Origin: a virus
Virus record (IMG/VR): IMGVR_UViG_3300035190_000444
Span: 24,586-88,585 of that record
Strand: one strand, 5' to 3'
DNA: 64,000 nt
Numbering within the stretch: the first letter of the stretch is position 1; the number at the start of each line of letters is the position of its first letter. Both the position numbers and the translations under genes were made by a program. Positions 21,390 to 63,823 of this stretch are shown piece after piece. Under the pieces are notes generated by a model that saw nothing but the letters and a program-made list of their open reading frames with translations, was not told the DNA's origin and did not search any database.

Positions 21390-21554
21390 GTACGCATAAC
21401 TACAGCAGGTGTCGCGCAAACTGTATTATCTATGCGCCCTATAACTGGACAGATGTATCACAGTGATGGAATTGTTGAACTGTAGCAACGACATAACCAC
21501 CTACCCATTTGGATGAACATGAGATGTACCTTTACAAAACTCATTACAGGTTAT

Positions 21555-33682: not shown

Positions 33683-33717
33683 ATATTTTTACTTACACAA
33701 CATTAGGAGCGTACAAC

Positions 33718-36695: not shown

Positions 36696-36727
36696 ATATT
36701 TTTACTTAAACAACAAAGGAGCGCGTT

Positions 36728-40269: not shown

Positions 40270-40301
40270 ATGTTTTTACTTAAACACACGCGGAGCGCAC
40301 T

Positions 40302-41320: not shown

Positions 41321-41352
41321 ATGTTTTTACTTAATAAAGTTTGGAGCGCACA

Positions 41353-42486: not shown

Positions 42487-42511
42487 ACTAACAAGCAATG
42501 CGGAGCGCACT

Positions 42512-42850: not shown

Positions 42851-42875
42851 ACTAACAAGCAATGCGGAGCGCACA

Positions 42876-43200: not shown

Positions 43201-43230
43201 ATGCACAACTTAACACACTAGGAGCGCGAT

Positions 43231-43460: not shown

Positions 43461-43493
43461 ATGTTTTTACTTACACAAACTGCGGAGCGTAAT

Positions 43494-43882: not shown

Positions 43883-43915
43883 ATGTTTTTACTTACACAA
43901 ACTGCGGAGCGTAAT

Positions 43916-44974: not shown

Positions 44975-45048
44975 TCCGTTCTTAGCATAAAGGTAATGCC
45001 AGGTCCTCATAAGACCCACTATCTCAGTTCGACCCTGAGGGAACGGAT
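44975..45048 (+). tRNA. tRNA-Met (CAT)
   Basis: Acceptor TCCGTTC (44975-44981) pairs with GAACGGA (45041-45047). D arm GCAT-AAAGGTA-ATGC; anticodon loop CTCATAA gives CAT; T arm CTCAG-TTCGACC-CTGAG. CCA is not encoded. CAT could also mark an Ile tRNA whose C34 is modified to lysidine. Confidence 0.85.
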
Positions 45049-45247: not shown

Positions 45248-45322
45248 GGAACTATAGTATAACAGTAGTATGCAGGTCTGCAAAACCTTGCGGTGCCGAT
45301 GCAAATTTGGCTAGTTCCTCCA
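45248..45322 (+). tRNA. tRNA-Cys (GCA)
   Basis: 75 nt with encoded CCA. Acceptor GGAACTA/TAGTTCC, D arm GTAT-AACAGTAGT-ATGC, anticodon loop CTGCAAA (GCA), T arm GCCGA-TGCAAAT-TTGGC, discriminator U as expected for Cys. The HNH gene's stop lies 13 bp downstream. Confidence 0.92.
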
Positions 45323-49490: not shown

Positions 49491-49598
49491 ATGCAATCGT
49501 TACGCAACAAGTTATTTCCATCAGGCGACTACACATTAGGGTTCGCTATTGTGGATGCAATTTTAGTAGTATTAGTAATCACTTTAATAGTAATTTAG
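49491..49598 (+). CDS. 35-residue membrane peptide
   Basis: AGGAGC site. MQSLRNKLFPSGDYTLG then one transmembrane helix (FAIVDAILVVLVITLIVI). The stop overlaps the AGGAGCG of the next gene. Confidence 0.55.
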   Translation: MQSLRNKLFPSGDYTLGFAIVDAILVVLVITLIVI

Positions 49599-49607
49599 GA
49601 GCGCGTT

Positions 49608-57741: not shown

Positions 57742-57965
57742 TTGAATTAGGACCACATGACGACTGCTTTGTAACGATAGACGAAGCAATGTTATACATC
57801 TATACCCTAACCCACAACAACAAATATGACTGGCGGTTTCCGACATCAGCAGAATATGATGACACTGATGAGATGCCTCCTATGACCTGGCATAGCACCT
57901 GGTATGACTATAACAATAAGGATTTAGAACGAGCAGTTTACCCAGTGAGAGATAAAGATGATTGA
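57738..57965 (+). CDS. WRxPT-family protein 38
   Basis: 75 residues from ATG 57738 (ATGA junction). IDEAMLYIYTLTHNNKYDWR-FPT; end YPVRDKDD. Confidence 0.75.
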   Translation: MIELGPHDDCFVTIDEAMLYIYTLTHNNKYDWRFPTSAEYDDTDEMPPMTWHSTWYDYNNKDLERAVYPVRDKDD

Positions 57966-58188
57966 AGCTAAAATTTTATCACACTCAAAATCGTGTGAAG
58001 AAGCTGAACTTTACATTTGGACACTAACACACGAAAACAAGTACGACTGGCGTTTCCCAACACGCGATGAATGCGTAAAACTTACAGGTGGTCCAAGTCC
58101 AATATGGTGTGATTCACTAATCAAAAGTCCATATATAGAGCCACTCGACCGCTTTTATTTAATAGCAGTGAGAGATACAGATGCTTGA
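57958..58188 (+). CDS. WRxPT-family protein 39
   Basis: 76 residues. CEEAELYIWTLTHENKYDWR-FPT; end IAVRDTDA. Lacks the usual E-x-AP start. Confidence 0.75.
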   Translation: MIEAKILSHSKSCEEAELYIWTLTHENKYDWRFPTRDECVKLTGGPSPIWCDSLIKSPYIEPLDRFYLIAVRDTDA

Positions 58189-58384
58189 GTTTGCTAGTCA
58201 ATCCCATTTACTCCCTTATTACGAATCTTGGCTTTACTGCGTTACTTGTACTCACAACAACAAGTATGACTGGCGATTTCCTACTATTGGAGATGTAACA
58301 GAGTACCCCAGTATTATCAAGAAAAGTTTTTCACAACCATACGATTGGTTCTATGTAACCCCAGTGAGAGATAAAGATGATTGA
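58181..58384 (+). CDS. WRxPT-family protein 40
   Basis: 67 residues. YYESWLYCVTCTHNNKYDWR-FPT; short variable part; end TPVRDKDD. Confidence 0.75.
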   Translation: MLEFASQSHLLPYYESWLYCVTCTHNNKYDWRFPTIGDVTEYPSIIKKSFSQPYDWFYVTPVRDKDD

Positions 58385-58601
58385 ACAAGCCCCTAAGACT
58401 ACTGACAAATTTGATGCCTATAACGCCGAACTATACATATACACTTGCACACACGAAAACAAATACGACTGGCGAATGCCTACTATAAGAGAATGTGCAG
58501 ACTTGATTATAACCGGTAGTTGGAATGCTAGTGATTTTAATCGTGAGACACTGGTACCATATATGTGGAAGGTATCCCCTGTGAGAACTAAAGATGATTG
58601 A
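58377..58601 (+). CDS. WRxPT-family protein 41
   Basis: 74 residues. YNAELYIYTCTHENKYDWRM then PT; end SPVRTKDD. ATGATTGA junctions at both ends. Confidence 0.75.
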   Translation: MIEQAPKTTDKFDAYNAELYIYTCTHENKYDWRMPTIRECADLIITGSWNASDFNRETLVPYMWKVSPVRTKDD

Positions 58602-58791
58602 AGCAGCCCCTATGTCACATTTAATGCCATACGACGATGCATTCTTATATGCGATAACTTGTACACACAACGACAAGTATGACTGGCGAATGCCAACAGT
58701 TGGCGACTTCTCCAATAATGTTAAACTACGAACAACTGATCAACGCCGCAACATACAATTCTGCCCAGTAAGAGGATCAAGAGATGATTGA
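58594..58791 (+). CDS. WRxPT-family protein 42
   Basis: 65 residues, the shortest intact member. YDDAFLYAITCTHNDKYDWR-MPT; end CPVRGSRDD (VRG for VRD). Confidence 0.75.
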   Translation: MIEAAPMSHLMPYDDAFLYAITCTHNDKYDWRMPTVGDFSNNVKLRTTDQRRNIQFCPVRGSRDD

Positions 58792-58999
58792 ACAAGCTAC
58801 TACTAAACGACGTAACTTCTCATATGACGAAGCTTGGCTATATGTAGCCACTTGCACCCATAAAAAGAAATATGATTGGCGACTACCAACTCATAAAGAA
58901 CACTTTGAAAGACAATATAGACCTCTGATACTTGGACAATGGTATGAGCGAGACTATTTCGCTCTCCAAACATATGTAACCCCTGTGAGAACCTTATGA
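58784..58999 (+). CDS. WRxPT-family protein 43
   Basis: 71 residues. YDEAWLYVATCTHKKKYDWR-LPT; end TPVRTL. Confidence 0.75.
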   Translation: MIEQATTKRRNFSYDEAWLYVATCTHKKKYDWRLPTHKEHFERQYRPLILGQWYERDYFALQTYVTPVRTL

Positions 59000-59268
59000 T
59001 CGAACTTGCTCCCTACTTATACCAAACGACACAAGACCAAGCATTCTTATTCACTATAACCTGCACACACAAAGACAAATACGACTGGCGATTCCCTACT
59101 ATGTTTGAAATCATATATAGTGGTATGTTTGAGAATTTAGATCCATGGAGATCTGATAATGTATATCCTAAACTTATTCATTTGATTAATCTGACATACA
59201 CAGCTGTTCCGGTAAGAGATTATCCTTTTCCAACTAGACCTCCCGGACTTTATGTACAAAAGCAATGA
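58996..59268 (+). CDS. WRxPT-family protein 44 with C-terminal tail
   Basis: 90 residues. QDQAFLFTITCTHKDKYDWR-FPT; after VPVRD an extra 16 residues (YPFPTRPPGLYVQKQ). Last gene of the cluster, followed by 560 bp of non-coding DNA; the tail may reflect loss of the normal stop at the border. Confidence 0.75.
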   Translation: MIELAPYLYQTTQDQAFLFTITCTHKDKYDWRFPTMFEIIYSGMFENLDPWRSDNVYPKLIHLINLTYTAVPVRDYPFPTRPPGLYVQKQ

Positions 59269-59376
59269 ATAAGTAGCTTATCCATAAAAAAGCAACATAT
59301 TTGTAGCAAAATAAAAAGAAAGCAACTTATCCATTGCTTACTATAGTAGTAGTGACTATAGTGATAAAACTAACTC

Positions 59377-59406
59377 TTTACACACCATAAAGGACTATAG
59401 TATAAT
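59377..59406 (+). promoter_or_regulatory. Promoter-like site in the palindrome region
   Basis: -35 TTTACA 59377-59382, 18-nt spacer ending CTATAG, -10 TATAAT 59401-59406. No gene follows for 400 bp, so a short RNA could be made. Confidence 0.5.
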
Positions 59407-59763
59407 AAGCAATAGTTACAGCAATCCACGCTATAGTAGTAAACGCTATAGTATAATAAGTATGCCTAACTATCCACGCTATAGTATAGACTATAGTGAT
59501 ATAACGCTTAGTAAGAGAATCATAGAGGTTCCCTATAATAGCGTATACGAGAACCCTGACTATAGTATAGAGATGAAAGTGAGGCCTGCGGCTCACGTGG
59601 CACTATTTGGTAAACAATAGAGGAGGCCTATGGTGGTTACAGGGGATATGAGGGGTTTTGTGGAAAACAATGGGGTATTCATTGTAGCTATGCCGCCCAA
59701 CCACCCATTCCTACTATATCATTACAGTTGTATTACAGTGGTAAAATTGTGCCAAAATAGTGC

Positions 59764-59792
59764 TTGCAATTACCATATTAGTGCGTTATAAT
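59764..59792 (+). promoter_or_regulatory. Sigma-70-type promoter
   Basis: -35 TTGCAA 59764-59769, 17-nt spacer, -10 TATAAT 59787-59792; drives 59828. Confidence 0.8.
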
Positions 59793-59827
59793 GTACTAAA
59801 TTAGTTAAACACCACAGGAGCGTAAAA

Positions 59828-59998
59828 ATGCACATATTATTTGAACTATTAGGACTATTTGTCCTCGGAATCTTCTCTATAGTGTTAGTAGCACTGGCAT
59901 TACTGCTAATTGGATTCTTTGGATACACTGAAACACATAATCCATTGTTTGCAATACCATTTGTACTAGGATTGATGTTTTTAAGCGCATTGGATTAA
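59828..59998 (+). CDS. 56-residue membrane protein
   Basis: AGGAGCG site. Two hydrophobic helices (LFELLGLFVLGIFSIVLVAL; FAIPFVLGLMFLSAL) joined by a short loop with YTETHNP. No family recognised. Confidence 0.6.
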   Translation: MHILFELLGLFVLGIFSIVLVALALLLIGFFGYTETHNPLFAIPFVLGLMFLSALD

Positions 59999-60005
59999 TA
60001 ACCAG

Positions 60006-60034
60006 TTGACAGTCATACTATACTATAGTATAAT
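60006..60034 (+). promoter_or_regulatory. Sigma-70-type promoter
   Basis: -35 TTGACA 60006-60011, 17-nt spacer, -10 TATAAT 60029-60034 preceded by ACTATAG; drives the ATPase gene. The near-perfect consensus suggests strong early expression. Confidence 0.85.
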
Positions 60035-60067
60035 AAACACTTACTAACACACAATGCGGAGCGTATT

Positions 60068-60946
60068 ATGCAACAAACAGTAGCAAGACCACAAATGATC
60101 ACCGTGGATACAATCAAGACCAACCGTACTATAGCGCAACGACCGGCTGAACATGTATCACACGAAACGGACGAAGAGATTGTAGAACGGTTGCGCACAC
60201 GGTTTGCCATACTAGATGATATGACTCGTGCAGTAAAGAAAGGTGATGTTCGCGCTATGATCGTAAGTGGACCACCTGGAGTAGGCAAATCACACGGTGT
60301 AGAAACAGTGTTATCGCGTTATGATGTGTTCGCCAATGTAGCACAAGATGAAACCTTAAAGAAGTACACTATAGCAAAAGGTAACATCAGTGCATTATGT
60401 TTATATCAAATGCTGTGGGACTATAAGGACAAGAAGTGTATCGTAGTGTTTGACGACTGCGATAGTGTATTGTTTGATGATATTGCGCTCAACTTGCTCA
60501 AAGCAGCATTGGACACAGGGCGTAAGCGTACTATCAGTTGGCACACAGAGTCGCGCATACTAAAAGAAGCAGGGATTCCAAACAGTTTTGACTTTGAAGG
60601 CGGATGTATATTCATTACCAATGTCAAGTTTGATCATGTTAAGAGCAAGAAGTTACAAGACCATTTAGAAGCATTAGAGTCGCGTTGCCACTACTTGGAT
60701 CTTACTATAGACACAGAACGCGAAAAGATGTTGCGTATTAAGCAAATCGTAAGCGACGGTATGCTAGACAAGTATGAATTCCAAGAAGATGAAGCTGAAG
60801 AGATCATTAACTATATAGATACACACAGAAAGAAAATGCGTGAATTGAGTTTGCGCATGGTTCTTAAAGTAGCAGATTTGCGTAAAGCAATGCCAACTAA
60901 CTGGGAAGCAGTAGCTTCTGTAACTTGTATGCGTCCACATAGATAA
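60068..60946 (+). CDS. AAA+ ATPase
   Basis: 292 residues, GCGGAGCG site. Walker A SGPPGVGKSHGVE (about residue 68), Walker B IVVFDDCDSVLFDD (about 123), sensor-like IFITNVKFD (about 180), arginine-finger region EALESRCHYLDL. A C-terminal helical lid follows. Fits single-domain phage AAA+ ATPases of unknown substrate that act on DNA or protein complexes. No partner domain is fused to it. The hairpin array begins 22 bp downstream. Confidence 0.8.
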   Translation: MQQTVARPQMITVDTIKTNRTIAQRPAEHVSHETDEEIVERLRTRFAILDDMTRAVKKGDVRAMIVSGPPGVGKSHGVETVLSRYDVFANVAQDETLKKYTIAKGNISALCLYQMLWDYKDKKCIVVFDDCDSVLFDDIALNLLKAALDTGRKRTISWHTESRILKEAGIPNSFDFEGGCIFITNVKFDHVKSKKLQDHLEALESRCHYLDLTIDTEREKMLRIKQIVSDGMLDKYEFQEDEAEEIINYIDTHRKKMRELSLRMVLKVADLRKAMPTNWEAVASVTCMRPHR

Positions 60947-60968
60947 TAAGAACGCGCATATGAATAGT

Positions 60969-61081
60969 GTATAGTTGATTCGCTCCCAACTATACTCTAT
61001 ATACTATAGTATAGATTCGCTCCCTATACTATAGTAACTCTATAAGCTCACTTTAGATTCGCTCCCTAAAGTGGGCTTTTT
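60969..61081 (+). ncRNA. Three-hairpin RNA with identical anti-Shine-Dalgarno-like loops
   Basis: Hairpin 1: GTATAGTTG (60969-60977)/CAACTATAC (60987-60995). Hairpin 2: 13-bp stem 61002-61014/61024-61036. Hairpin 3: 13-bp stem 61044-61056/61066-61078 with a T-rich tail. All three have the same 9-nt loop ATTCGCTCC, while the stems are unrelated in sequence. CGCTCC is complementary to GGAGCG, the ribosome-binding core of many genes in this window. Probably a small RNA, alone or cut from the ATPase mRNA; alphaproteobacterial 'cuckoo' and CcsR RNAs have similar exposed anti-SD loops. Alternatively a binding array for an RNA-binding protein. Confidence 0.65.
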
Positions 61082-61084
61082 CTT
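61044..61084 (+). terminator. Terminator formed by third hairpin
   Basis: The 13-bp stem at 61044-61078 has one G-U pair and is followed by TTTTTCTTATTCTTTTT; ends the ATPase/hairpin transcript. Confidence 0.8.
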
Positions 61085-61228
61085 ATTCTTTTTAACCGGA
61101 CCCTGTACTCTGGTACTAGGTCGGTCTATAAACGTGAAAAACGGCAAAATCATGGTGTTGCAGACCGCTAACGACGCGGGCCAAAAACCGAAGATGACGA
61201 GTTATTATCGAGTCCTGGACCTATAAAA

Positions 61229-61241
61229 GGCCCCGCTGTAA
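61229..61241 (+). repeat. GGCCCCGCTGTAA element 10
   Basis: In the long form TAAAAGGCCCCGCTGTAAACT, as at 20941. Confidence 0.85.
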
Positions 61242-61419
61242 ACTATTACTCGCGTGTTTATATTGTGTATTATTATACTATAATAGTGTATCATAGCGTA
61301 AAATGCGCTGTAATGCGTTACACGCGCTGAGTATATACTATAGTATAGTATGCTATGTGCTTATAATATAACACGCTACACGCGCACATACAAGTGGGCG
61401 TATACGAGTAACAACGTTC

Positions 61420-61449
61420 TTTACAGACCCCGCTGTGCTATAGTATAAT
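61420..61449 (+). promoter_or_regulatory. Promoter with CCCCGCTGT in its spacer
   Basis: -35 TTTACA 61420-61425, 18-nt spacer holding CCCCGCTGT and CTATAG, -10 TATAAT 61444-61449; drives 61483. Second promoter with the GC-rich element between its boxes. Confidence 0.8.
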
Positions 61450-61482
61450 AAACACTTACTAACACACTATGCGGAGCACGCA

Positions 61483-61779
61483 ATGAAGCTATGTAATGTA
61501 CCACAAGAGTTATTGGCAAAGCAAGCTATTATAGAAACCATTCCAGACATTGCCTCTATAGTAGTAATATCTGGAGTATTAGTTGGATCGTATTATCTGT
61601 TTAAGTTATTAAAAGATGAGTTCAATGGATCGGATGCGTTTACCTATCTATGTGTAATGGGTGTAGCATGGATTGGCGGGTTTGCATGGATTGCTCATCT
61701 ACTCACTAACATAGTCACCGCTGTAGCCAATCCAGAGTATGCGGCAATGGTTAAGTTCGCAGCAGAGTGCGCCAAATGA
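61483..61779 (+). CDS. Membrane protein, holin candidate
   Basis: 98 residues, GCGGAGC site. Two hydrophobic helices (IVVISGVLVGSYYLFKLL, about 25-42; FTYLCVMGVAWIGGFAWIAH, about 53-73) and a short C-terminal helix. Size, topology and position just before a secreted transglycosylase fit a holin, but no signature motif is present. Confidence 0.55.
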   Translation: MKLCNVPQELLAKQAIIETIPDIASIVVISGVLVGSYYLFKLLKDEFNGSDAFTYLCVMGVAWIGGFAWIAHLLTNIVTAVANPEYAAMVKFAAECAK

Positions 61780-62330
61780 TCCGCGCTGCCATTCTTGCTA
61801 CTATAGTAGTAATGCCGGTGAATGCGGATGTATATAGATATACGGGAGCGGATGGGAGAGTTTGGTTAACAGATCATCCGGTTGAGATCAATACTGCAGC
61901 CAAACCATCTGCCCCTGTATCACATACTATAGTAGAGAAGAAGCCACTAACTCGATGGGAAGTCAATCACTATGTCCATATCGCAGCAAAGAAGTATGGA
62001 GTGGATGAGAAGTTGGTACATGCAGTCATTAAAACGGAAAGTACATATCGCAAATCGGCTATAAGTAAGAAAGGTGCGGCTGGATTGATGCAACTGATGC
62101 CAGCAACGGCAGAGCGATTTGGAGTGAGTGATCGGATGGATGAAAGACAGAACATTGAAGGCGGAGTTCGGTTCCTAAGGTTCTTGCTCGATACATTCAA
62201 AGATACCAAACTAGCAGTAGCCGGATATAATGCGGGCGAGCATGCGGTGATCCGGCATAAGAATAAGGTTCCACCCTATCCAGAAACCCAAAACTATGTA
62301 GGATTGGTAATGGCGGCATACACTGAGTAA
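61776..62330 (+). CDS. Secreted lytic transglycosylase (SLT) with DUF4124-like domain
   Basis: 184 residues from ATG 61776 (ATGA overlap with the membrane gene; GTG 61767 also possible). Signal peptide MIRAAILATIVVMPVNA; DVYRYTGADGRVWLTDHP is DUF4124-like; then HAVIKTESTYRKSAISKKGA (catalytic Glu), AGLMQLMPATAERFGV, AVAGYNAGEHAV and PYPETQNYVGLVMAAY define family 1 SLT. Cleaves peptidoglycan from the periplasm. Could be the endolysin exported by the host Sec system or an enzyme against superinfection. Confidence 0.85.
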   Translation: MIRAAILATIVVMPVNADVYRYTGADGRVWLTDHPVEINTAAKPSAPVSHTIVEKKPLTRWEVNHYVHIAAKKYGVDEKLVHAVIKTESTYRKSAISKKGAAGLMQLMPATAERFGVSDRMDERQNIEGGVRFLRFLLDTFKDTKLAVAGYNAGEHAVIRHKNKVPPYPETQNYVGLVMAAYTE

Positions 62331-62338
62331 CAAACCAG

Positions 62339-62367
62339 TTGACAACCTGTATGCAGTCTGCTATACT
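62339..62367 (+). promoter_or_regulatory. Sigma-70-type promoter
   Basis: -35 TTGACA 62339-62344, 17-nt spacer, -10 TATACT 62362-62367 (followed by ATGCGTG); drives 62401. Confidence 0.8.
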
Positions 62368-62400
62368 ATGCGTGTACTATATATATGAGGAGCAAACAAA

Positions 62401-62490
62401 ATGTCGTTTATACACACATTCGCAGTATTCACTACTATCGTATTATTGAGCGCAATCGCTGTATTGAACTGGTATGAGCTAGTGATTTAA
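62401..62490 (+). CDS. 29-residue membrane peptide
   Basis: GAGGAGC site. MSFIHTFAVFTTIVLLSAIA then VLNWYELVI, one transmembrane helix. Own promoter, so probably a real gene despite its size. Confidence 0.55.
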   Translation: MSFIHTFAVFTTIVLLSAIAVLNWYELVI

Positions 62491-62496
62491 AACTTC

Positions 62497-62525
62497 TTTA
62501 CAAACCAAAATTGTTTTGCTATACT
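62497..62525 (+). promoter_or_regulatory. Sigma-70-type promoter
   Basis: -35 TTTACA 62497-62502, 17-nt spacer, -10 TATACT 62520-62525; drives 62559. Confidence 0.8.
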
Positions 62526-62558
62526 ATGTACAAGTTAAACAACAAAGCGGAGCGTGTT

Positions 62559-62711
62559 ATGCAAGCTAAGATAAAACAATTAGTTGAAAAAGCAAACAAG
62601 TATGCCATTTACGTGGAAACATCGTACTATGCTAGTCCGGAGATAGTTGGCTACAGTGCAAAGGGCAAACGGATTCTGAGAAGAGTTGACAGATTATTGA
62701 AAGCGGTTTAA
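62559..62711 (+). CDS. Small basic helical protein
   Basis: 50 residues from ATG 62559 (GCGGAGCG). AKIKQLVEKANKYAIYVETS then basic end (AKGKRILRRVDRLLKAV). No family recognised. Confidence 0.55.
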   Translation: MQAKIKQLVEKANKYAIYVETSYYASPEIVGYSAKGKRILRRVDRLLKAV

Positions 62712-62718
62712 ATAGTTC

Positions 62719-62755
62719 TTTACAACCAGTGCATAGTTTGCTATACTATGCACTT
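62719..62755 (+). promoter_or_regulatory. Promoter, palindromic -10 class (GTGC variant)
   Basis: -35 TTTACA 62719-62724, 17-nt spacer, -10 TATACT 62742-62747, dyad GTGCATAG/CTATGCAC. Drives 62781. Confidence 0.85.
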
Positions 62756-62780
62756 ACTTAACTACTACAGCGTAACTATT

Positions 62781-63017
62781 ATGTATAAATTAAAAATTAC
62801 TACAACAAGCAACAACATCGTTACTATCTACTTTAACACTAACATCACAGTGTCGGAGTATAAAGATAGAAACACAGGAATTATGGAAACTTCAATAAGT
62901 GATGGACGTCACAACAACGGCGGCTGGACAACACTTGAGAGCGCAGAGAGCATTGTGGCGCGTATTGATGCGTTGATTGCTGAAGCAAACGAAAACAAAA
63001 TGCTTGCAATGTTTTAA
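62781..63017 (+). CDS. Unknown small protein
   Basis: 78 residues from ATG 62781; ribosome site weak (CAGCGTAACT). Beta-rich N part (YKLKITTTSNNIVTIYFNTN), then helix SAESIVARIDALIAEANENK. No family recognised. Confidence 0.55.
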   Translation: MYKLKITTTSNNIVTIYFNTNITVSEYKDRNTGIMETSISDGRHNNGGWTTLESAESIVARIDALIAEANENKMLAMF

Positions 63018-63031
63018 AAAAGCTGTATAAT
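63004..63031 (+). promoter_or_regulatory. Sigma-70-type promoter overlapping a gene end
   Basis: -35 TTGCAA 63004-63009, 16-nt spacer, -10 TATAAT 63026-63031; drives 63112. Confidence 0.7.
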
Positions 63032-63111
63032 ATGCAACAAGTTAGCTAACAAGCGCGTTAGCTAACTAGCAGTAAAACAACTTAACTTTTCTATTTTTTG
63101 GAGCGTACAAT

Positions 63112-63465
63112 ATGTCAAACTTAATCACAGTTACTGCAGTTGAAAAAACATTTACATTCGCTGGCATCAGCAACTTAAATGGTGTGTACAAAGTACGATT
63201 TGCTAACAAAGCGGATCGTGTGAAAGTGTTACAACGCAATGGACACACAGACATTAGATTGTTTGCGCTAGACGGTGCAATGACCAAGTATGATGCAGCA
63301 ATGGCAATTAAGGACTACACAGAGTTAGAGGACTTAGATGCACAACAAGCATTCGATGACTTCTTTAGCAAGTACACAGTGGTTGCTCCACAAAGTGTAG
63401 TAGTTGAGGAAGTGGACTACGCGGCAGCAGCAGATGCACTGGAAGCTGAGTTAGCAGTAGCATAG
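63112..63465 (+). CDS. Unknown protein, short paralogue of 44350 gene
   Basis: 117 residues, GGAGCG site. VEKTFTFAGISNLNGVYKVR and GHTDIRLFALDGAMTKYDAA, then DAQQAFDDFFSKY, match the gene at 44350 over their first 95 residues; the tail here is Ala/Glu-rich. Function unknown. Confidence 0.65.
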   Translation: MSNLITVTAVEKTFTFAGISNLNGVYKVRFANKADRVKVLQRNGHTDIRLFALDGAMTKYDAAMAIKDYTELEDLDAQQAFDDFFSKYTVVAPQSVVVEEVDYAAAADALEAELAVA

Positions 63466-63472
63466 AGTAATA

Positions 63473-63484
63473 GGCCCCGCTGTG
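63473..63484 (+). repeat. GGCCCCGCTGTG element 11
   Basis: 7 bp after the stop of the 117-residue gene. Weaker copies without GG occur at 41299, 61428 and 63740. Confidence 0.75.
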
Positions 63485-63529
63485 TACATATGTATGGCGG
63501 GGCGACTTAACTAATTAGTTGGAGTTGTT

Positions 63530-63703
63530 ATGGAAGCTATAGAGCAAAACTTAAGAGAGCAGTTAGCAATACTTCAAACACGCGGTGCGACCTTAATGCA
63601 AGAGCGCAAAGAGTTCTTTGCAGGAATGGACGAAGATTGGGACAACGATATAGATGATGCCTACACACCAATAGACTGGGACGACATATGGGACGATGAG
63701 TAG
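63530..63703 (+). CDS. Unknown small acidic protein
   Basis: 57 residues, TTGGAG site. Helical start (EAIEQNLREQLAILQTRGA), then Asp/Trp-rich end (DEDDWDN-type: DEDWDNDIDDAYTPIDWDDI). No family recognised; the acidic tail could mimic DNA. Confidence 0.6.
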   Translation: MEAIEQNLREQLAILQTRGATLMQERKEFFAGMDEDWDNDIDDAYTPIDWDDIWDDE

Positions 63704-63786
63704 TCGGCAATCCGACCGACCTCCCCCCCCCCCGGATAGACCCCGCTGCTTACACGCGTGTGCGAGCGCGTGTGAATATAAAGTTC
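63704..63786 (+). other. GC-rich spacer with poly-C tract
   Basis: Hairpin GTCGG-CAAT-CCGAC, then 11 C residues (63723-63733), then a CCCCGCTG copy and alternating CGCGTGTGCGAGCGCGTG. Contrasts with the AT-rich surroundings; the hairpin may end transcription. Confidence 0.6.
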
Positions 63787-63823
63787 TTGACAACCAGTGC
63801 ATACTATAGTATAATATGCACTT
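63787..63823 (+). promoter_or_regulatory. Promoter, palindromic class variant
   Basis: -35 TTGACA 63787-63792, 17-nt spacer, -10 TATAAT 63810-63815; the flanking GTGCATA and TATGCAC keep the dyad around ACTATAGTATAA. Drives 63849. Confidence 0.8.

Follow-up and report, generated by a model that had tools for sequence, protein, structure and literature searches.

Tandem same-loop hairpins complementary to a phage's own ribosome-binding sites: a likely antisense RNA in a family of uncultured phages

Closest described systems

The c4 RNA of P1 and P7 is a structured phage antisense RNA whose complementary sequences are likely located in loops; it acts around the ribosome-binding site (RBS) of ant and blocks translation (PMC12197685). 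CcsR RNAs are tandem RNAs found 3′ of a protein gene on the same transcript, with a Rho-independent terminator at the end (PMC10253847). The loops of alphaproteobacterial CcsR and "cuckoo" RNAs carry anti-Shine-Dalgarno (anti-SD) sequences. In T4, GGAG in early translation initiation regions is cut by RegB, while RegA acts as a competitor of ribosomes on ∼30 mRNAs (PMC3014915). Staphylococcus aureus RNAIII and other small RNAs with C-rich loops pair with the SD sequences of several targets through those hairpin loops. Covering of an RBS by an antisense RNA is already known. To our knowledge, no phage RNA has been described that matches an RBS common to an entire gene block and whose loop-RBS pair has co-changed across a large viral family.

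Here, an array of three hairpins was analyzed in a 64,000-nucleotide stretch of an uncultured virus record (IMGVR_UViG_3300035190_000444), hereafter the window. The nearest phage analogue in action is c4; both RNAs are phage encoded and complementary to a phage RBS, through the loops here and likely so in c4. However, c4 acts on the ant mRNA, whereas one repeated loop here matches the RBS of ∼10 to 20 genes, and the array follows an AAA ATPase or HTH_39 gene and has no Rfam match. In layout, the CcsR/cuckoo RNAs are nearest, with tandem common-loop hairpins ending in a terminator, a description met here by the structure and a T-run, the transcript itself being inferred. CcsR is chromosomal and associated with a DUF1127 protein and the stress response, while the upstream gene here encodes the AAA ATPase or, in a second context, an HTH_39 protein. 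The array also lies in viral records rather than an alphaproteobacterial chromosome, and the extended RBS that its loop complements is restricted to one regulon. The inferred site of action, where translation of early mRNAs is initiated, is shared with T4 RegA and RegB, but those are proteins, whereas this is a noncoding hairpin array whose targets would be chosen by base pairing. RNAIII-type targets are dispersed chromosomal genes, and such RNAs are not known to have a co-changing RBS code over a gene block.

Rfam 15 covariance models run over the hairpins identified no family, the best match being VrrA at 20 bits against a gathering score of 50. RF01695 (c4) gave no match at the gathering score in the window, nor up to an E value of 5 in positions 60900 to 61500. 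The hairpin RNA was not described in Rfam 15 or in the open-licence literature searched. By inference, it would work like an RBS-blocking antisense RNA while belonging to no named family.

The hairpin array and its presumed transcript

The first-pass annotation had described three adjacent hairpins with stems of 9, 13, and 13 bp and one common loop, and this held in the sequence, on folding, and against shuffles. The loops are identical 9-nt sequences, ATTCGCTCC, each closed by a G-C pair, and the array lies 20 nt 3′ of a T4 NrdC.10-like AAA ATPase gene (Table 1). The minimum free energy of the array (folded stretch, 60964 to 61084) was −44.9 kcal/mol, compared with −23.9 ± 3.4 in 200 dinucleotide shuffles (z, −6.2), none of which was as low. 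Three copies of ATTCGCTCC were found in the entire 88,585-base virus record, all inside the array, and no copy of the reversed word. Based on sequence, hairpin 3 and the T-rich run that follows it likely form an intrinsic terminator and the 3′ end of the RNA; hairpin 3 is missing from a simple terminator-scan list because the loop limit of that scan is 8.

Table 1. Positions of the array, its putative targets, and associated features in the window
Feature	Position	Strand	Details
Hairpin 1	60969..60995	+	9-bp stem, loop ATTCGCTCC at 60978-60986; 4 more outer pairs, 60964-60967/60997-61000
Hairpin 2	61002..61036	+	13-bp stem, loop ATTCGCTCC at 61015-61023
Hairpin 3	61044..61078	+	13-bp stem, loop ATTCGCTCC at 61057-61065, then T-rich run TTTTTCTTATTCTTTTT
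AAA ATPase, phrog_1250, T4 NrdC.10-like	60068..60946	+	also immediately precedes the RNA in most relatives; own RBS GCGGAGCG
Sigma-70 promoter, perfect consensus TTGACA-17-TATAAT	60006..60034	+	upstream of ATPase
Target RBS GGAGCG, ORF start 33718	33706..33711	+	
Target RBS GGAGCG, ORF start 36728	36718..36723	+	previously cited
Target RBS GGAGCG, ORF start 40302	40292..40297	+	previously cited
Target RBS GGAGCG, ORF start 41353	41343..41348	+	
Target RBS GGAGCG, ORF start 42512	42502..42507	+	previously cited
Target RBS GGAGCG, ORF start 42876	42866..42871	+	
Target RBS GGAGCG, ORF start 43231	43221..43226	+	
Target RBS GGAGCG, ORF start 43494	43484..43489	+	previously cited
Target RBS GGAGCG, ORF start 43916	43906..43911	+	previously cited
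Target RBS GGAGCG, ORF start 49608	49598..49603	+	
Target RBS GGAGCG, ORF start 59828	59817..59822	+	
Target RBS GGAGCG of ATPase gene, ORF start 60068	60058..60063	+	previously cited
Target RBS GGAGCG, ORF start 62559	62549..62554	+	previously cited
Target RBS GGAGCG, ORF start 63112	63100..63105	+	previously cited
Putative target leader, besides the GGAGCGAA leader			AACACACAAUGCGGAGCGUAUUAUG

A promoter scan of the window listed none from the ATPase start to the hairpins, and a perfect consensus promoter precedes the ATPase gene; the RNA therefore probably corresponds to the 3′-terminal part of that gene's mRNA. Both the ATPase mRNA and the hairpin RNA are presumed to arise from this promoter, transcription being inferred without RNA-sequencing data. 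The ATPase gene has a GGAGCG RBS of its own, and autoregulation through it is possible. The nrdC.10 homology of the phrog_1250 ATPase rests on the annotation of ZZ1 and KVP40.

Two further sequence features were observed around the array. The palindrome ACTATAGT is concentrated at positions 59340 to 63804, which hold 12 of its 13 copies in the window, and one copy lies within the stem of hairpin 2. Directly 3′ of the array, ∼100 nt (61095-61200, plus strand; CTGTACTCTGGTACTAGGTCGGTC...GCGGGCCAAAAACC) are near-identical in the window and in its nearest relative, L123, and are more conserved between the two than the hairpin stems; a second noncoding RNA is possible there.

A hairpin family in uncultured viral contigs

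Hairpins with the same loop were identified in well over a hundred uncultured viral contigs, mostly just 3′ of the same ATPase gene. A viral contig scan found two exact copies of GATTCGCTCCC 14 to 44 nt apart in 48 contig stretches, for which the chance expectation is <1 by rough estimate, and 45 to 75 nt apart in 104. Among the first viral contig loci, the arrays were mostly hairpin pairs or triples, the last hairpin often being a terminator, and in ∼45 the hairpins came just after the ATPase stop codon. Three loci (L008, L106, and L039) proved to be tandem coding-type repeats and were set aside from the family. With the ATPase protein as the only query, most of the loci retrieved first carried the array with exactly the same loop. 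Other loci carried a single same-loop hairpin ∼600 to 930 nt farther 3′, behind two or three genes of which the final one has an HTH_39 domain.

The stems are unrelated between phages yet self-complementary. Flank-to-flank duplex energy was −14.6 in clade 1 (135 dereplicated instances), compared with −7.35 ± 0.21 when flanks were swapped between instances, and −17.6 in clade 2, the second branch described below (96 dereplicated instances), compared with −7.9 ± 0.33. The full 9-nt loop with its G-C closing pair was conserved in 134 of the 135 clade 1 instances. In L123, whose ATPase is 87% identical to that of the window, the stem of hairpin 1 is different and still self-complementary with an identical loop, and hairpin 3 keeps its pairing through replacement of a stem G-T by A-T.

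A scan of bacterial genomes returned the motif pair in 44 stretches, none of which was this array; they look like coding repeats or REP-like palindromes. As a separate observation, copies of GATTCGCTCCC are also present in REP-like palindromic repeats from marine gammaproteobacteria (L158, L163, L172, L190, and L193; Thalassolituus and Oleibacter), which look unrelated to the phage RNA. No cultured relatives were found; the closest ATPase from named phages, that of PA5oct-like phages, has 49% identity. PA5oct, ZZ1, and KVP40 contained only isolated TTCGCTCC words, as frequent as a control word, and no array.

Loop and ribosome-binding site change together

GGAGCG occurs 16 times in the window. 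It makes up 12 of the 61 GGAG-type RBSs there, compared with 14 of 318 in control phage loci, and is thus over-represented (Fisher P = 1.7e-4). The eight places at which it had been cited before genes from sequence alone (Table 1, previously cited) are all real and upstream of an ATG, with spacers of 4 to 6 nt following the GGAGCG. Most of the target proteins tested had no named family; one is GP88 (PF17338). Loop-RBS complementarity in the window extends over 6 nt (CGCUCC:GGAGCG), the next base being C or T, while in most relatives it reaches ∼8 nt, where the usual RBS, GGAGCGAA, is the 8-nt reverse complement of the loop part UUCGCUCC. In a set of 74 loci that bear hairpins or are closely related, AAGGAGCGAA, the exact complement of the loop, is the RBS consensus. 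Of 435 GGAG sites in these loci, 256 continue with CG, with A next (58%) and A again (56%), compared with 14 of 318 in 67 control phage loci (Fisher P = 6e-62). The ribosomal anti-SD is ACCUCC. Because it does not pair with the CGAA part of this RBS, that part cannot be explained by the ribosome.

Distant relatives, mainly a second branch reached via the ATPase of L348, carry two to five copies of GCCCTC at the same place, mostly in hairpin loops. Their RBSs read GAGGGC(A), the commonest RBS words being GAGGGC and AGGGCA, and a sister group has neither the loop nor these RBS words. Among 177 dereplicated ATPase loci, those with the loop TTCGCTCC (n = 101) had GGAGCG before 597 of 2,561 genes and GAGGGC or AGGGCA before 6. 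Those with GCCCTC (n = 48) had GGAGCG before 7 and GAGGGC or AGGGCA before 342 of 1,381 genes, and those with neither loop (n = 26) had 14 and 10 of 656, respectively. No locus among the 177 combined one loop with the other RBS class. Predicted duplex energies were −13.1 and −14.2 kcal/mol for each loop with its own RBS, −5.4 and −6.1 crosswise, and −7.0 and −6.3 for the anti-SD with the RBSs. Relatives that kept the stems and changed the loop had been named beforehand as grounds for refutation; the opposite was seen, as stems change while the loop stays, and a changed loop comes with a changed RBS.

Several qualifications apply. Independent loop switches are few, since the ATPase tree needs only ∼5 changes of loop class; the three testable independent pairs (loop 1) nearly all agreed, without significance and with low power. 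Clade 2 was called by the presence of GCCCTC no more than 260 nt from the ATPase stop codon, which can admit chance matches, and a strict stem test was not used because it missed many true cases. Seven loop 1 and six loop 2 loci were scored without the matching RBS, several of them short or with few genes. Exceptions comprise L410, L418, L411, L428, and L325. Some have an evident alternative RBS; the GCCCTC of L325 is likely a chance word inside a gene, and L410, L418, and L411 look like real exceptions. In a GGAGCA-using group near clade 1, the loops match only partly or vary (TTGCTCC, CCGCTCC, and TTTCGCTCC). A third pair, TTGCTCC/GGAGCAA, was promising in L326, L359, and L368 and is not claimed, as a wider fetch gave mixed results. 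Separately, a second invariant hairpin loop, GTAGTGTCC, was noted in this group beside the GCTCC hairpin after the HTH_39 gene (L326, L359, L368, L351, and L362).

These data bear on whether the loops instead serve as sites for an RNA-binding protein of the phage or the host, in the manner of arrays bound by CsrA or coat proteins, with an incidental RBS match. Repeated one-loop hairpins are typical of protein-binding arrays, and conservation of the 9-nt loop and its closing pair exceeds the 6 to 8 nt that pair. Nevertheless, this explanation predicts neither that the loop complement should be the RBS consensus of the same block nor that the RBS should change to GAGGGC alongside a GCCCUC loop. 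It is considered very unlikely, although a helper protein is not excluded.

Matching sites are confined to one gene block

Across six genomes, the matching RBSs were confined to one co-directional block of ∼10 to 30 kb that contains the ATPase gene and the RNA (89 of 270 genes, compared with 6 of 1,066 outside). Confinement was significant in each genome (Fisher P = 2e-4 to 7e-17); these values are somewhat overstated because the block limits were set after viewing the distribution, a choice from which a per-10-kb table is free. In the window, the recognized tail and other virion genes, on the minus strand at 0.3 to 14 kb, lack the RBS word. In four genomes, a near-consensus promoter (≤2 mismatches to TTGACA-(16-18)-TATAAT) was found just upstream of 54 of 63 target genes, compared with 21 of 135 other block genes and 55 of 608 genes outside. 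The RBS word therefore tags genes that come first after a strong promoter of host type. Early expression of the block is inferred from these promoters only.

The proximity of promoters also invites a DNA-level explanation, in which a DNA-binding protein reads GGAGCGAA/TTCGCTCC, whichever way the word is oriented, both in promoter leaders and in the 3′ region. In its favor, both elements are one DNA word on opposite strands, and strong promoters lie beside the word at target genes. Against it, the word sits at SD spacing from the ATG in leaders, where it overlaps and uses the SD core, and in the loops of hairpins whose arms vary yet remain complementary, and its orientation to transcription is fixed in each context. 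We regard this alternative as very improbable.

Very little weight is also given to the proposal that the host is the main target of the RNA, whose CUCC-core loops would mimic the 16S anti-SD to block host mRNAs or sequester SD sequences generally, with shutoff of host translation. The CUCC core can pair with any GGAG, and early sigma-70 expression is inferred. However, a general anti-SD mimic would have CCUCC, whereas the actual loop extends to UUCG or becomes GCCCUC in the second branch, and each loop fits the phage's own block rather than other genes of the same genome (6/1,066), a comparison confined to phage genes.

Proposed action of the RNA

Taken with the hairpins, the constancy of the loop, its complementarity, the co-change, and the confinement of targets make it very likely that the loop pairs with the phage's own RBSs. 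The first-pass annotation had inferred a phage RNA that binds phage or host RBSs, or a loop-binding protein, through this loop. For the phage's own RBSs this is supported by the widespread family, the 8-nt match, the co-change, and the confinement, transcription and the effect on translation being inferred; host RBSs as the main target and the loop-binding protein are both weakened.

On this view, the three hairpins would form an antisense RNA encoded by the phage. It would most likely be the 3′-terminal part of the ATPase mRNA, either released by processing or acting while still on the mRNA, with hairpin 3 as the closing terminator. Each loop would present CGCUCC (UUCGCUCC in most relatives) at the 3′ side of a U-turn-like UUCG. 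Antisense RNA loops follow a YUNR U-turn rule, which the UUCG in the loop AUUCGCUCC fits, the structure being inferred, and such a turn would place CGCUCC on the stacked 3′ side. The loop would then pair with the SD and spacer (GGAGCG, usually GGAGCGAA) in the short, A-rich leaders of ∼10 to 20 promoter-proximal genes of the surrounding block, the ATPase gene included. Such pairing would cover the 30S binding site and lower translation of the entire early block, and the repeated loops could let one RNA engage several mRNAs. As the RNA would be made from the block it targets, the outcome may be negative feedback or early-gene shutoff. We consider this whole reading, an antisense RNA that switches off or limits the phage's early regulon, to be likely (probability, ∼0.77); transcription, processing, timing, and repression are all inferred.

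An opposite outcome of the same pairing would be that the RNA stabilizes or activates mRNAs by shielding the SD from nuclease or from a competing structure. Pairing itself is supported equally under this explanation, and because T4 RegB cuts GGAG in early leaders (PMC3014915), a masked GGAG could spare the mRNA. Against this, pairing across the SD and spacer should keep the 30S subunit away, and the short, A-rich leaders show no obvious structure that would need opening. Activation is thus thought very unlikely, and, given pairing, repression is very likely the outcome, as an inference made without functional data.

The antisense reading can be extended to an addressable translation code, in which a private RBS extension on one early block is read by a multi-loop RNA of the same block for shutdown. 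Loop and RBS would be a co-evolving lock and key, with mutually insulated keys in each branch, and the RNA would parallel T4 RegA/RegB, with an entire regulon as its target. The balance of evidence tips only slightly toward this bolder version. If true, lytic phages would possess an RNA-only means of ending early gene expression, and the odd RBS consensus of these phages would be explained. It would also supply ready-made, mutually insulated RNA-RBS pairs, the logic of which is directly testable in two-plasmid reporters.

Other features of the window

A Polynucleobacter-1 RNA (RF01718) was identified at positions 21409 to 21553 on the plus strand (59.6 bits). This family is listed for Burkholderiales and fresh water, and a Burkholderiales host for the phage is possible. 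ARAGORN identified a tRNA-Met at 44975 to 45048 that is absent from the Rfam list, and Rfam a tRNA at 45248 to 45319 that is absent from the ARAGORN list. Six tandem small ORFs at 57958 to 59268 (plus strand) share the motif CTHxxKYDWRxPT and resemble a recently amplified family.
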